Positions 28,929 through 48,223 of a DNA stretch of 64,000 nucleotides are shown here, one piece after another. The position numbers were made by a program, and so were the translations under genes. This stretch comes from Parapedobacter pyrenivorans. Lineage in GTDB: Bacteria; Bacteroidota; Bacteroidia; Sphingobacteriales; Sphingobacteriaceae. The stretch covers positions 1,290,718 to 1,354,717 of the forward strand of contig NZ_BMER01000001.1 of the NCBI RefSeq assembly GCF_014636865.1, given 5' to 3'. Position 1 is the first letter of the stretch. The number at the start of each line of letters is the position of its first letter. The notes under the pieces are model-generated. The model was not told the origin of the DNA. It was given only the letters and a program-made list of their open reading frames with translations, and did no database searches.

Positions 28929-29870
28929 ATGGCCAACACCCTTAACGTACATGACACTTTCGTCAGGAGCCTGCTTGCCGATAAGCAAATGGCCATCGAC
29001 TATTTCCGGTCTGCGTTGCCGGCACACATTGCCGATAAGCTGGATTTCAGCACCCTCAGTCCATTGCCCGGAACGTATGTTTCCAAAGAGCTGCAAACCG
29101 CCATCGCGGATGTGGTCTATACCTGCCAGCGCAAAGACCGCAGGGGGAGCATACACATCTCGCTGCTCCTGGAGCACAAGAGCGCACCGGACAAATATAC
29201 GCCCGTGCAGATCGGCGGTTACCTGTTTTCCGGTTACCAGCAGCAAATCCAGCAGAAGCGTAAGCGATTATCCCCCATCATACCCGTCCTGTTTTACCAT
29301 GGCGAACAACAGTGGGAGTATTGGACGCTGGACAGGCTATTCGACGGATTGGACGGGGAGCTGCTTGGATATCTGCCGAAGTTTGACTATATTTACACCA
29401 ACTTGCGTGATACGCCCGACGAGGTTATCAAGGCGGTAGGCAACCGGTTTTTGGTATCCTCTTTGCTGATGCTTAAGCACGCTTTCGAGGAATTTTGGCT
29501 CAGCCAAAATTTCACTGGTGAGTTGGCGGTTGGTTTGGATGATGGGAGTGGCGAGCTGCAGCAGGCGTTTTTGATATATTACTTTAACAGAGCCAAATTC
29601 ACGCCAGAACAATTGGTGAAAATGGTGAAGGATTTGCCGTTGACAATTAGAGATACTGTCATGAGTACGTATGATTTATTGATCGAAAAAGGGATCGAAA
29701 AAGGGATCGAAAAAGGAATTGAAAAAGGTGCCGAGTTAAAAAGCTATGAGGTTGTCCGCAATCTGTTGGCTACCGGAAAATTCACCGTGTCTGAAATTGC
29801 CAACTTTGCTACGGTAACGGAAGCGTTTGTAAAGAAAGTCCGCGCTGATTTGGGCAAAAAGAAAAAATAG
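28929..29870 (+). CDS. Rpn/YhgA-like PD-(D/E)XK nuclease (recombination-promoting nuclease family)
   Basis: The 313-residue protein belongs to the Rpn group formerly called transposase_31. The nuclease core shows Asp61 (IADVVY), Glu82 and Lys84 in SLLLEHKSAP, followed by QIGGYLFSGYQQQ and IIPVLFYHGEQQW, the family hallmarks. A run of four IEKG repeats (bases 29682-29730) links to a C-terminal module of about 50 residues ending FVKKVRADLGKKKK. In enterobacteria Rpn proteins are toxic DNases with anti-phage activity that also raise recombination. An in-frame internal ATG at 29661 would give a 69-residue C-terminal product. A terminator follows. Confidence 0.88.
   Translation: MANTLNVHDTFVRSLLADKQMAIDYFRSALPAHIADKLDFSTLSPLPGTYVSKELQTAIADVVYTCQRKDRRGSIHISLLLEHKSAPDKYTPVQIGGYLFSGYQQQIQQKRKRLSPIIPVLFYHGEQQWEYWTLDRLFDGLDGELLGYLPKFDYIYTNLRDTPDEVIKAVGNRFLVSSLLMLKHAFEEFWLSQNFTGELAVGLDDGSGELQQAFLIYYFNRAKFTPEQLVKMVKDLPLTIRDTVMSTYDLLIEKGIEKGIEKGIEKGAELKSYEVVRNLLATGKFTVSEIANFATVTEAFVKKVRADLGKKKK
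29682..29730 (+). repeat. Tandem 12-bp repeat encoding IEKG x4 inside Rpn1
   Basis: Four nearly identical 12-base units (consensus ATCGAAAAAGGG) encode four IEKG tetrapeptides between the nuclease domain and the C-terminal module. Rpn2 has a single IEKG at the matching place. Copy number could change by slippage in steps of four residues without loss of frame, varying the linker length. Confidence 0.8.
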
Positions 29871-46115: not shown

Positions 46116-46331
46116 ATGTCACCTATGATCATCAAACGCATTTGTATCCGTACCAACGAAGCGGCAGCCCTGTTGGGTGTCGACAAAAAACAAGGCGAGC
46201 GCAAGCTGCGCCTTATCAAAGCAGCACTAGGCAAAGAAAACCGGCACTACATAACCTTCCGCGAATTTGCCGAATATACCGGCATCCCGCTAGCGGAGGT
46301 GTTGGAAGCATGTGTTCCGTCGACGCGATGA
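46116..46331 (+). CDS. Small helix-turn-helix-like protein 1
   Basis: A 71-residue protein from ATG 46116 (68 residues if ATG 46125 is used; a further upstream ATG at 46086 is less likely). The sequence IKRICIRTNEAAALLGVDKK followed by RKLRLIKAALGKENRHYITF and REFAEYTGIPLAEVLEA reads as a compact DNA-binding-like helical fold common in Bacteroidota accessory modules. It is followed 130 bases later by a second HTH gene. Likely a local regulator of the repeat array or of DUF6266. Confidence 0.65.
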   Translation: MSPMIIKRICIRTNEAAALLGVDKKQGERKLRLIKAALGKENRHYITFREFAEYTGIPLAEVLEACVPSTR

Positions 46332-46460
46332 GTCAGTTTGCAAAGTGTCGCTACGCCAACCATTCCCAGAAATTATTGCGGTGAATCGCTAAAGTGTCGC
46401 GAAGTAAAATCTATTAATGCTTAACGTGTTTCTTTTTTCAATTCAAAAATGGAGGTTTTT

Positions 46461-46757
46461 ATGCAATCGAACCCTTATCTCTCGTACCCAAAAAAGGAAA
46501 ATGCCGTGGTGGACGCGGTGCTTCCGTTGCTCAACCTGCTCGCCGAGCTGCTCAAACGGCTGCTTGCCGGCTTGGGCAACCCGGCCCATCAGCACGGGCT
46601 GTTGCTGCCCGAAGAAGTCACCATGATGCTGCGCATCAGCATCCGCACGCTGCGGCGCTACAACGAACAGGGCATTTTGCGGCCGCTCAAGATCGGCGGC
46701 ATGCGCTACTACCTGATGAGTGACATCATCGAATCGGGTAGTAGCGGTACAAGCTGA
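46461..46757 (+). CDS. Small MerR/excisionase-like helix-turn-helix protein 2
   Basis: The start at 46461 is set by GGAGGT at 46451-46456; an ATG at 46449 overlaps that site. The 98-residue protein has a leucine-rich helix (VVDAVLPLLNLLAELLKRLL) and an HTH_17/MerR-like domain (LLPEEVTMMLRISIRTLRRY, NEQGILRPLKIGGMRYYLM). Such domains bind DNA in excisionases and small regulators. A terminator follows 19 bases downstream, then the 11-bp repeat array, a natural candidate target. Confidence 0.8.
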   Translation: MQSNPYLSYPKKENAVVDAVLPLLNLLAELLKRLLAGLGNPAHQHGLLLPEEVTMMLRISIRTLRRYNEQGILRPLKIGGMRYYLMSDIIESGSSGTS

Positions 46758-46775
46758 TCGCATCCTTAATGATAG

Positions 46776-46812
46776 AAGCCTGCCGGACCGTAGGGGTGGC
46801 AGGCTTTTTTTT
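46776..46812 (+). terminator. Rho-independent terminator after the HTH pair
   Basis: AAGCCTGCC (46776-46784) pairs with GGCAGGCTT (46798-46806) around a 13-base loop, followed by a run of eight T. It ends the HTH transcript exactly where the 11-bp array begins (46811). Confidence 0.88.
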
Positions 46813-47021
46813 ACCTGATGCCTACCAAATGCTTACCTTCTGCTTAGTCTTCACTTACTACTGGCTTACCCTTTCCTTACCTCCGCCTTACCAGTTGCTT
46901 ACCTATTCCTTACCTATTCTTTACCTATTCTTTACCTCGGGCTTACCAATTCCTTACCAAATCTTTACCAAAGGGGTAGGGGAAAGGTAGCGAATGGGTA
47001 AACGAAGGGTAGGGAAGGTAT
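46811..47021. repeat. Array of 11-bp phased TTACC units with an inverted GGTA continuation
   Basis: TTACC (or a one- or two-base variant) begins at 46811 and at every eleventh base up to 46965: fifteen units without a single slip in phase. Each unit is TTACC, four variable bases, S, then C or T; the four bases are mostly A/T. From 46975 the reverse complement takes over with GGTAG/GGTAA at 46975, 46986, 46997 and 47008 (again 11-bp steps), and GGTAT at 47017. The period is not a multiple of three, so it is not coding. It places identical contacts on one face of the helix and can fold into an imperfect hairpin around 46970. Confidence 0.85.
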
Positions 47022-47061
47022 AGCGGGATACTTATTAGGTGATACAGATCTGGTCGCAAGC

Positions 47062-47106
47062 AGCCATTCCCGGCCACCTCTGGCCAGCCGCGGCCAATGG
47101 TTGCCA
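47062..47106. repeat. Second phased array: five GCCA units on a 10-bp period
   Basis: NGCCA occurs at 47062, 47072, 47082, 47092 and 47102 (A, G, G, G, T as first base), exactly 10 bases apart. It lies between the 11-bp array and the DUF6266 start codon at 47251. It could be a second set of same-face protein contacts. With only five units, chance is less easily excluded than for the first array. Confidence 0.55.
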
Positions 47107-47250
47107 CCAGGTTTTTTCCACGCTTTTCCCACCCGATGTTTGCTTCCGGAAACGGCACTGTACCGGTACGAAAACGGAGTAACGAACGCCAGCTGCCCAC
47201 GCCGGTTCCGGCAGCAGGCACAGTATTGAAAATATTAATTAATAAGTATT

Positions 47251-47925
47251 ATGGGAAGTTTTAACAGGGGAATCCACGGCGGATTCTCGGGAAAAGTAGG
47301 AAACGTGGTAGGCGCCCACTGGCGCGGCATCGATTACATGCGCAGCCTGCCACGGGTAAACAAGGGCAGGCCGGTCACCGAAGAGCAGCTGATGCACCGC
47401 GTACGGTTCGCCGCAGCGGTGGTGTTTGCCAAGCCGATCAGCTACGTATTCAACGTTGGCTATGGGAAGGAGGCCAAGCAAAAGCTCACGGGCTACAACC
47501 TGGCCGTGCGGCAGATCTACAAGGAGGCCATTATTGGCGAGCACCCCGACGTGTCGGTAGACCCGGCGCTGGTGCGCATCAGCGCGGGCGACCTGGTGCG
47601 GCCGTTCAACCCTTCGGCGGAGGCATTGCCGGGGCAGGTGCTGCGCGTGTCGTGGATAGACAACACGAAACCACGCACCAAATCGGATCACAGCGACCAG
47701 GCCATCGTGGTGGCGTACAACGCCGCCAAGGCGGAGTACCAGTATGATATCGGTAGTGCCAAGCGCCTCGACGAGGAGCTGCTGCTGGAGTTGCCGGATT
47801 ATTTCGCCGGTGATGAAGTGCACGTGTACCTGGGGATGGTGAGCAAGACGGGTGGCATTGCGTGCAACAGCCTCTACCTGGGCACAGTAGTAGTGGCTGA
47901 GGACGAACCCGAACCGGGGCCATAA
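47251..47925 (+). CDS. DUF6266-family protein
   Basis: The 224-residue protein starts MGSFNRGIHGGFSGKVGNVV, then GAHWRGIDYMRSLPRVNKGR, the hallmark of DUF6266, a Bacteroidota-restricted family of unknown function. The glycine-rich start is followed by a helical stretch and two beta-rich segments (residues 95-220). There is no signal peptide. A 10-bp palindrome ATTAATTAAT (47234-47243) precedes the start. Family members tend to sit with small HTH and membrane genes, as here; a structural or phage-like role has been suggested by context only. Confidence 0.8.
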   Translation: MGSFNRGIHGGFSGKVGNVVGAHWRGIDYMRSLPRVNKGRPVTEEQLMHRVRFAAAVVFAKPISYVFNVGYGKEAKQKLTGYNLAVRQIYKEAIIGEHPDVSVDPALVRISAGDLVRPFNPSAEALPGQVLRVSWIDNTKPRTKSDHSDQAIVVAYNAAKAEYQYDIGSAKRLDEELLLELPDYFAGDEVHVYLGMVSKTGGIACNSLYLGTVVVAEDEPEPGP

Positions 47926-47998
47926 CCGGAGGTTGGATTCAATGCCGCGGGGCGGGGAAGGCCCTGCGGCTTTTTGTTCAATCAATAACAGTTGAAAA

Positions 47999-48223
47999 AT
48001 GCAAAACGAAAAAAACACAGTCGAGCTTCCCGAAGCGGAAAAGCCGACATTATACGACAGGATCAAAGAAACCTTGGCCATGGCCAGCCAGTTTATTATC
48101 GCTGCACCATTGAAGCTGCCGCCTAAAGTGGTGACCGTCGCCAAGTATGTGGCGCTGGCGCTCGGCGTACTGGAAGCCGTGGAAAGTGCTGCAAAGAAAG
48201 GGGACGACGGCGATGAAGACTAA
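47999..48223 (+). CDS. Small hypothetical protein downstream of DUF6266
   Basis: The 74-residue protein has a charged start (MQNEKNTVELPEAEKPTLYD), an amphipathic middle (MASQFIIAAPLKLPPKVVTV) and a hydrophobic helix (AKYVALALGVLEAVESAA), ending in acidic residues GDDGDED. Its last 11 bases overlap the next small gene, indicating coupled translation. No family recognised; it may be membrane-associated. Confidence 0.65.
   Translation: MQNEKNTVELPEAEKPTLYDRIKETLAMASQFIIAAPLKLPPKVVTVAKYVALALGVLEAVESAAKKGDDGDED

Follow-up and report, generated by a model that had tools for sequence, protein, structure and literature searches.

Among the described systems closest to the element analyzed here are operators bound by winged HTH (wHTH) proteins. 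As far as the accessible parts of these reports go, BldC, a small MerR-like wHTH protein, sits head-to-tail on direct repeats of variable number at the Streptomyces whiI and smeA-ssfA operators and protects tracts of 5 bp at regular intervals of one helical turn (PMC5859096); RdfS and other wHTH proteins form filaments, with one DNA turn between BldC molecules (PMC11963761); and CarH binds tandem 11-bp direct repeats, the MerR-type domains of CarH/CarA lying on one face (PMC9304148). BldC operators have two to four repeats, with 9-bp sites at whiI, and the available part of the report describes neither an inverted arm nor an exchange of core (PMC5859096), whereas the present arrays run to 6-25 units at an exact 11-bp pitch and include both a turn and an inverted arm. 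CarH/CarA operators hold three to five repeats of the core TnnACA and belong to a light/B12 regulator with a cobalamin-binding domain, according to an equally partial source (PMC9304148); the HTH protein encoded at our locus, at 102 aa, leaves no room for such a domain. Direct-repeat arrays of 11 bp (R1) or 10 bp (pB171) with a plasmid-specific sequence also occur in ParR/parC, but there, in the portion of the account at hand, the reader is a ribbon-helix-helix protein with ParM as its partner and the arrays are plasmid-borne, whereas the present ones are chromosomal and dispersed (PMC9426499). The TAACTGA heptamer repeats of Beggiatoaceae, Cyanobacteria and some Bacteroidetes are likewise dispersed intergenic direct repeats, but they consist of one fixed heptamer, mostly in few copies per set, near start codons in the main genome, and variable spacers at an 11-bp pitch are not reported in the accessible text (PMC4679880). 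Among the papers listed by a literature search outside subscription journals, which accounts in other wording may escape, none describes 11-bp arrays in the present group of bacteria. REP/BIME and MITE-type repeats are intergenic, multi-copy and partly palindromic, as are the present arrays, but we know of no 11-bp phased multi-unit arrays with an exchangeable core among them.

The locus lies in a 64,000-nucleotide stretch of the Parapedobacter pyrenivorans genome, the whole of which is referred to as the window. A first-pass annotation had described TTACC or a close variant at every eleventh base from 46811 to 46965, followed by GGTA units, and our analysis bears this out. The 15 units of the direct arm follow one another in exact 11-bp steps; 12 of them are exact TTACC and 71 of the 75 core letters agree, the exceptions being 46822 (CTACC) and 46855 (TTACT) with one mismatch each and 46844 (TTAGT) with two. 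All four GGTA units are present, with their TA step in the same 11-bp phase as the TTACC units (Table 1). When five columns of 15 units were scored across the window at the other periods from 8 to 17, the best values were 43-49, as against 71 at period 11, and 100 first-order Markov windows reached a maximum of 45 at period 11. As had also been described, the small HTH gene is followed by a terminator-like hairpin, and it is within the T run of this hairpin (46805-46812) that the array begins, the run overlapping the first unit; by reading, other HTH-linked copies have G+C-rich inverted repeats at the same place. The array ends about 227 bp before the DUF6266 gene.

The spacers had been said to vary freely. 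Among 300 units from 22 arrays, a set that takes in orthologs and one duplicate, this holds for positions 6-7 (0.05-0.17 bit) but not for positions 8-11 (0.5-0.9 bit), and the unit consensus is TTACC-NN-TTCC; because units had been chosen by their core, the bit values can be interpreted for the spacers only. The units are not near-identical, as those of a CRISPR or a plain tandem repeat would be: the core is conserved and the spacers vary. Since phase is kept while spacers vary, we agree with the earlier view that recent plain duplication did not produce the array. Most Parapedobacter copies read have an aberrant unit again near position 4-5, and TTAGT/TTACT in the window is for that reason more than noise.

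Table 1. Features of the array locus: feature, position in the window, strand, and basis of the assignment
Module HTH - terminator - 11-bp array - 10-bp array - DUF6266	46433..48058	+	blastn, flanks read
Small MerR/Xis/BldC-like winged HTH protein (HTH_17), 102 aa	46449..46757	+	Pfam HTH_17 E 3.8e-06
Terminator-like hairpin AAGCCTGCC/GGCAGGC with T run overlapping first array unit	46776..46812	+	sequence, RNA fold
Direct arm, 15 units x 11 bp, core TTACC, aberrant TTAGT/TTACT at 46844, 46855	46811..46975	+	sequence, scoring
Inverted arm, GGTA(A/G) at 46975, 46986, 46997, 47008 and degenerate unit near 47019, in phase	46975..47023	-	sequence
Second array, 10-bp phased, core (G)GCCA, 5 units at 47062, 47072, 47082, 47092, 47102	47062..47106	+	sequence, any-core detector
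Candidate -7 box GATGTTTG of DUF6266 promoter (TATGTTTG in L429, L450, L451)	47135..47142	+	sequence
Palindrome GTACCGGTAC, recurrent before several DUF6266 genes	47160..47169	.	sequence
DUF6266 protein, 224 aa	47251..47925	+	Pfam PF19781 E 2.5e-38

The array is real, and stretches of gene-free DNA of the same class recur in related bacteria. We searched the 5.93-Mb genome with a 3-unit TTACC pattern allowing up to 2 mismatches and read the matches with their sequences, which gave six clear arrays and, outside these six, a degenerate seventh (L016). The six are the window array, its 94%-identical duplicate (L011), and arrays in four other places: next to a class I tRNA synthetase gene read as ileS, in the ribD/prmC interval, next to a gene for an outer-membrane beta-barrel protein, and in the gap that separates an HTH paralog from a DUF6970 gene. 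The TTACC copies read are built alike: some three TTACC units come first, followed by one or two aberrant ones (such as TTAGTCTTC or TTACT), by further TTACC units in varying number and, after a turn, by inverted units; in most copies the turn is a 5-nt loop closed by TTACC/GGTAA. The exact 4-unit pattern matched seven of 60 genomes, our own included, and six of the seven are among nine Parapedobacter genomes, the other three of which gave no match. A pattern built on the turn matched 15 of 301 family genomes, against a single match, in one genome, for its reversed control; of 296 genomes sampled across the phylum, our own was the sole match. Among the matches listed, arrays of the TTACC form were found in Parapedobacter, Pedobacter, Niastella and Longitalea; at least 117 stretches matched, and this placement by genus rests on 50 hand-chosen rows read as units. 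Many other matches to the TTACC pattern, for example in phytoplasma and Alicyclobacillus, are ordinary tandem repeats whose spacers do not vary.

Besides TTACC there are other cores, and the word differs between arrays and between species. At the ileS site in nine Parapedobacter genomes, reading showed TTACC in five species, a TTCG array in its place in genome G001, and no array in three; the best segments of these orthologs range from 6 to 16 units. In front of a 647-aa gene, two species carry TTACC at a site where G001 carries TTCG. Between ribD and prmC, three of the nine genomes have TTACC, and the array is absent with conserved flanks in five (G001, G002, G005, G007, G008). At this site in G006 (L319, upstream of prmC), units resembling AATAAACTCCG can be read, their spacing faintly suggestive of 11 bp. 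Solo arrays beside housekeeping genes thus come and go between species. The first-pass annotation had held that absence from relatives with the same neighboring genes would speak against its reading; such sites exist, but the ileS array is kept in five species. We also recorded gene settings, with genes called by a simple codon-score ORF caller and four ileS sites (L012, L277, L285, L288) set to tandem because the caller missed an Fe-S biosynthesis gene. TTACC arrays at 28 of 31 loci, orthologs included, are divergent in 9 cases, tandem in 16 and convergent in 3, and TTCG arrays at 19 of 20 loci are divergent in 2, tandem in 14 and convergent in 3.

Four exact TTCG units matched 52 of 201 family genomes, with up to 175 matches in one genome; the reversed control matched in 14 genomes, 1-6 times in each. 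We read 13 G001 copies (L379-L391) among the matches listed, and in 12 of them a regular direct arm of TTCG units leads through a centre to an inverted arm of CGAA units, L385 being less regular. Eleven of the 13 share the centre GCAA-N4-TTGC, which is able to form a hairpin, and the inverted arm often has an aberrant unit near its far end. The TTCG copies in G002, G005 and G006 have a shared unit order.

A detector that accepts any core was run at periods 7-20 over 464 kb, made up of twenty 20-kb stretches of our own genome (400 kb) and the window. Under strict settings it returned two arrays, that of the window and L400 with core ATAGG, both intergenic and both of period 11, and none at any other period. 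Looser settings gave 2-3 arrays of period 11 over the same 464 kb and from 0 to 2 of every other period, one of the non-11 arrays being the 10-bp array of the window. The ATAGG array (L400:2197-2260; C1:402197 in our genome) is followed by a CCTAT unit and lies between a ThiF/MoeB-like gene and an Alginate_exp-family gene. In Flavihumibacter (L075:590-660 and L114:237-310), AGGTAAGAA/AGGTTTCCA units are spaced 11 bp apart, with no clear second arm in these stretches. We tentatively raise the possibility of a period-locked, core-exchangeable class, in which the 11-bp pitch and the direct-centre-inverted layout would be invariant and the 5-bp word would be a lineage- or paralog-specific address for a cognate reader. 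If so, chromosomes would carry a cognate code with a logic like that of plasmid incompatibility groups: the word at one locus would depend on the species (TTACC or TTCG at ileS), and DUF6266 paralogs within a genome would use different words.

The HTH gene directly before the array encodes the candidate reader. Several homologs of this protein begin about 4 codons further in. It scores 18.4 bits (E 0.0014) against NCBIfam HTH_BldC (NF033787), far below the membership cut-off of 77. Its predicted structure, a modest model (mean pLDDT 70.7, 4 sequences), retrieved, in this Foldseek order, BldC-DNA (6amk/6ama), Pukovnik Xis (4j2n), RdfS (8dgl) and CarH-DNA (5c8e), none at E ≤0.001. Two traits of BldC-type operators are present at the locus, namely a nearby gene for a small MerR-like wHTH protein and direct repeats one helical turn apart. 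The association between array and HTH gene that had been proposed for testing is supported within the genus: six of eight family members (at least 67% identity, the protein of the window included) stand directly before a TTACC/ATACC array, one stands before a weak array of another core and one (G007) before none. A strict rule in which this HTH protein alone reads TTACC arrays was rejected, since G002 has TTACC arrays with no HTH match and G006 has them with only a weak 36% match; other readers must therefore exist if the model set out below holds. G001, whose arrays have the core TTCG and which gave no 4-unit TTACC match, lacks any relative of this HTH protein. A small ORF before the HTH gene (46119-46331) is weakly excisionase-like and has no relative elsewhere in the loci compared.

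On the other side of the array, the DUF6266 protein is modeled at low confidence (mean pLDDT 63.7, 5 sequences) with helices in its N-terminal part and an FN3-like beta sandwich in its C-terminal part; its Foldseek matches are FN3-like and none suggests DNA binding. A full-text literature search for DUF6266 gave no paper. The Bacteroidota -7 consensus is TAnnTTTG, from which the candidate box in the window differs by one mismatch, and a strict box lies between the array and a same-strand downstream gene in only 14 of 32 cases, with a distance of 2.3 kb to the gene in one of these. By blastn, the 1.63-kb module occurs twice in the genome at 94% identity (L011). Period 11 was the top upstream autocorrelation in 15 of the first 22 DUF6266 genes. 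We then scored 41 DUF6266 loci, 29 among the matches listed and 12 from our own genome (where there are 19 matches); because some are near-duplicates, the 41 are not independent. Within 500 bp upstream, an array of period 11 was found in 21/41, of period 10 in 14/41 and of either in 30/41, while 2/41 had only another period and 9/41 had nothing. No array of period 10 or 11 was found within 500 bp downstream (0/41; five at 7 or 9). The same detector on 800 tiles of 500 bp from our own genome found period 11 in 4, period 10 in 3, either in 6, and other periods in up to 7. By reading, the upstream cores differ between DUF6266 genes: TTACC, TTCGG, ATCGTC, TAGGGG, ATAGGGG and CCGCA at 11 bp, and GGCCA, GGACA, GTCAAA and GCAAA at 10 bp. 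Upstream of the DUF6266 gene in L017 (C6 of our genome), direct repeats on GGCCAAACGTGT have a spacing of more than 11 bp.

The first-pass annotation had looked to a pattern search across Bacteroidota for a tie to DUF6266 or the HTH genes. Recurrence and both ties were found, the upstream position in 30 of 41 loci against 6 of 800 tiles upholding the link with DUF6266, but only two of the six clear TTACC arrays in our genome adjoin a DUF6266 gene and the other four do not. We thus rejected a general tie between DUF6266 and the TTACC core.

The explanation we favor, to which we give an even chance of being right, is that the array is a DNA track for a cooperative wHTH filament with one protomer per turn, which would control neighboring promoters. 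Its tandem sites, one 5-bp core per helical turn, would hold a small wHTH protein of the BldC/Xis/CarH kind, whose protomers would assemble head-to-tail into a nucleoprotein filament, the orientation of the chain flipping at the turn. The likeliest reader of TTACC would be the HTH protein encoded just before the window array. The filament would be flanked by the upstream gene's terminator on one side and the downstream promoter on the other and would probably control that promoter, that of DUF6266 in the window and those of the tRNA synthetase gene, ribD/prmC and others elsewhere. The readers of other arrays would be further members of the family and the pitch would be set by the protein fold, so that the core could change and the 11-bp pitch could not. 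Plain B-DNA has 10.5 bp per turn, and an exact 11-bp period kept over 15-25 units would be expected to leave one face of it; same-face contact would therefore need a filament that sets its own pitch. The annotation had named DNA contacts and a stacked RNA as alternatives. Phase and layout, the intergenic location, the variation of the core and the ties to HTH and DUF6266 genes are all observed and speak for the former; from them we infer binding, filament formation, the identity of the reader and a regulatory effect. Counting against a filament, the 15-25 units seen here far exceed the 2-5 repeats given for BldC/CarH operators in the accessible parts of those reports, and the gain and loss of solo arrays between species is unlike an essential operator. 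Further points against it are the TTACC arrays of G002 and G006, which have no close homolog of this HTH protein, the HTH gene of G007 with no array after it, the weak structural and family matches of the HTH protein to BldC, and the presence of a strict promoter box in only 14 of 32 cases. If the filament explanation is right, head-to-tail operator arrays, so far of a few repeats, would reach 15-25, and Sphingobacteriaceae and some Chitinophagaceae would possess a dispersed element of a regulatory or architectural kind. Core words and their candidate readers would form natural pairs in which a change of DNA-binding specificity could be studied at fixed geometry, and the arrays would offer a handle on DUF6266.

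The main rival is that the arrays are selfish or neutral dispersed repeats of the REP/MITE kind, copied between genes and owing their regular form to the copying mechanism or an ancestral structure, with no host function. Their multi-copy, intergenic occurrence fits this, as do presence and absence between intact flanks (the five empty ribD-prmC sites), the unit order shared in three genomes, the centre shared by 11 of 13 G001 copies, the duplicated module and an expansion that differs strongly between species. On the other hand, cores remain conserved and phased while spacers diverge, which requires selection or homogenization, the same addresses carry different cores, and the upstream tie to DUF6266 is strong. 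We regard this account as somewhat improbable. Mere slippage of a tandem repeat whose unit is 11 bp by chance would explain why unit number varies between orthologs (6 to 16 at ileS) and why some adjacent units are identical. It is the least probable account we considered, given that strict core-only arrays at other periods are missing from the same 464 kb and that the inverted arm and the aberrant unit recur across genera, both of which are lacking in the constant-spacer repeats (phytoplasma, Alicyclobacillus and others) retrieved with the same pattern.

Two further accounts give the arrays a function of another kind. We consider it unlikely that they are centromere-like or nucleoid-organizing sites on which a protein positions, loops or segregates the chromosome, as ParR does on parC. 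ParR binds 10- or 11-bp tandem repeats of plasmid-specific sequence, in the accessible part of that report (PMC9426499), and our genomes have several dispersed arrays each with no strict orientation to genes; however, three of nine Parapedobacter genomes have no 4-unit TTACC match, and the recurrent placement upstream of one gene family, DUF6266, points to regulation. No partition gene was recognized among the neighboring ORFs read (some scanned by family), and the neighbors in the window are the HTH and DUF6266 genes. A structured RNA, whose two arms, direct and inverted, would form a long imperfect hairpin serving as a leader or sRNA, is less probable still. An A-form helix has 11 bp per turn, the array region of the window folds more stably than 200 shuffles (z -3.0), the 5-nt turn is closed by TTACC/GGTAA in most TTACC copies, and 11 of 13 G001 TTCG centres are hairpin-capable. 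Yet arms pair no better with their own partner than with arms of different copies: P was 0.71 and 0.39 for TTCG (12 copies, without L385), 0.96 and 0.99 for all Parapedobacter TTACC copies (21, without the window duplicate L011), and, in smaller TTACC sets, 0.82 and 0.96 for our own genome and 0.85 and 0.90 for P. luteus. The arms are also unequal, 15 versus 4-5 units in the window, and arrays occur in convergent and opposite-tandem settings as well. Rfam placed no family on the arrays of the window region and nine further loci, where it found two tRNAs only. The stacked-RNA alternative is thus not supported by arm pairing or by the spread over divergent, tandem and convergent settings, and a leader RNA was rejected on the same grounds of pairing and orientation. 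Together with the location between a hairpin and a promoter-like box, these results favor a DNA site.

A phage or plasmid origin was dropped because no relative of DUF6266 was found in the phage collection, the plasmid collection or IMG/VR. The TTACC pattern gave 74 matches in IMG/VR, and the five inspected as units are constant-spacer repeats. Seven further loci, six viral and one a genome contig, were inspected. Two of these (L222:4010-4250 and L223:700-940, IMG/VR) each contain a pair of opposed TTTACC arrays, of four units apiece and separated by about 190 bp, a third (L242:9757-9800, IMG/VR) has one four-unit TTTACC array, all with 11-bp steps and variable spacers, and L203 has a short opposed pair. 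The short TTTACC arrays on viral contigs are possibly small phage counterparts. Elsewhere in the window, positions 29681-29728 hold four copies of a 12-bp repeat, GATCGAAAAAGG.
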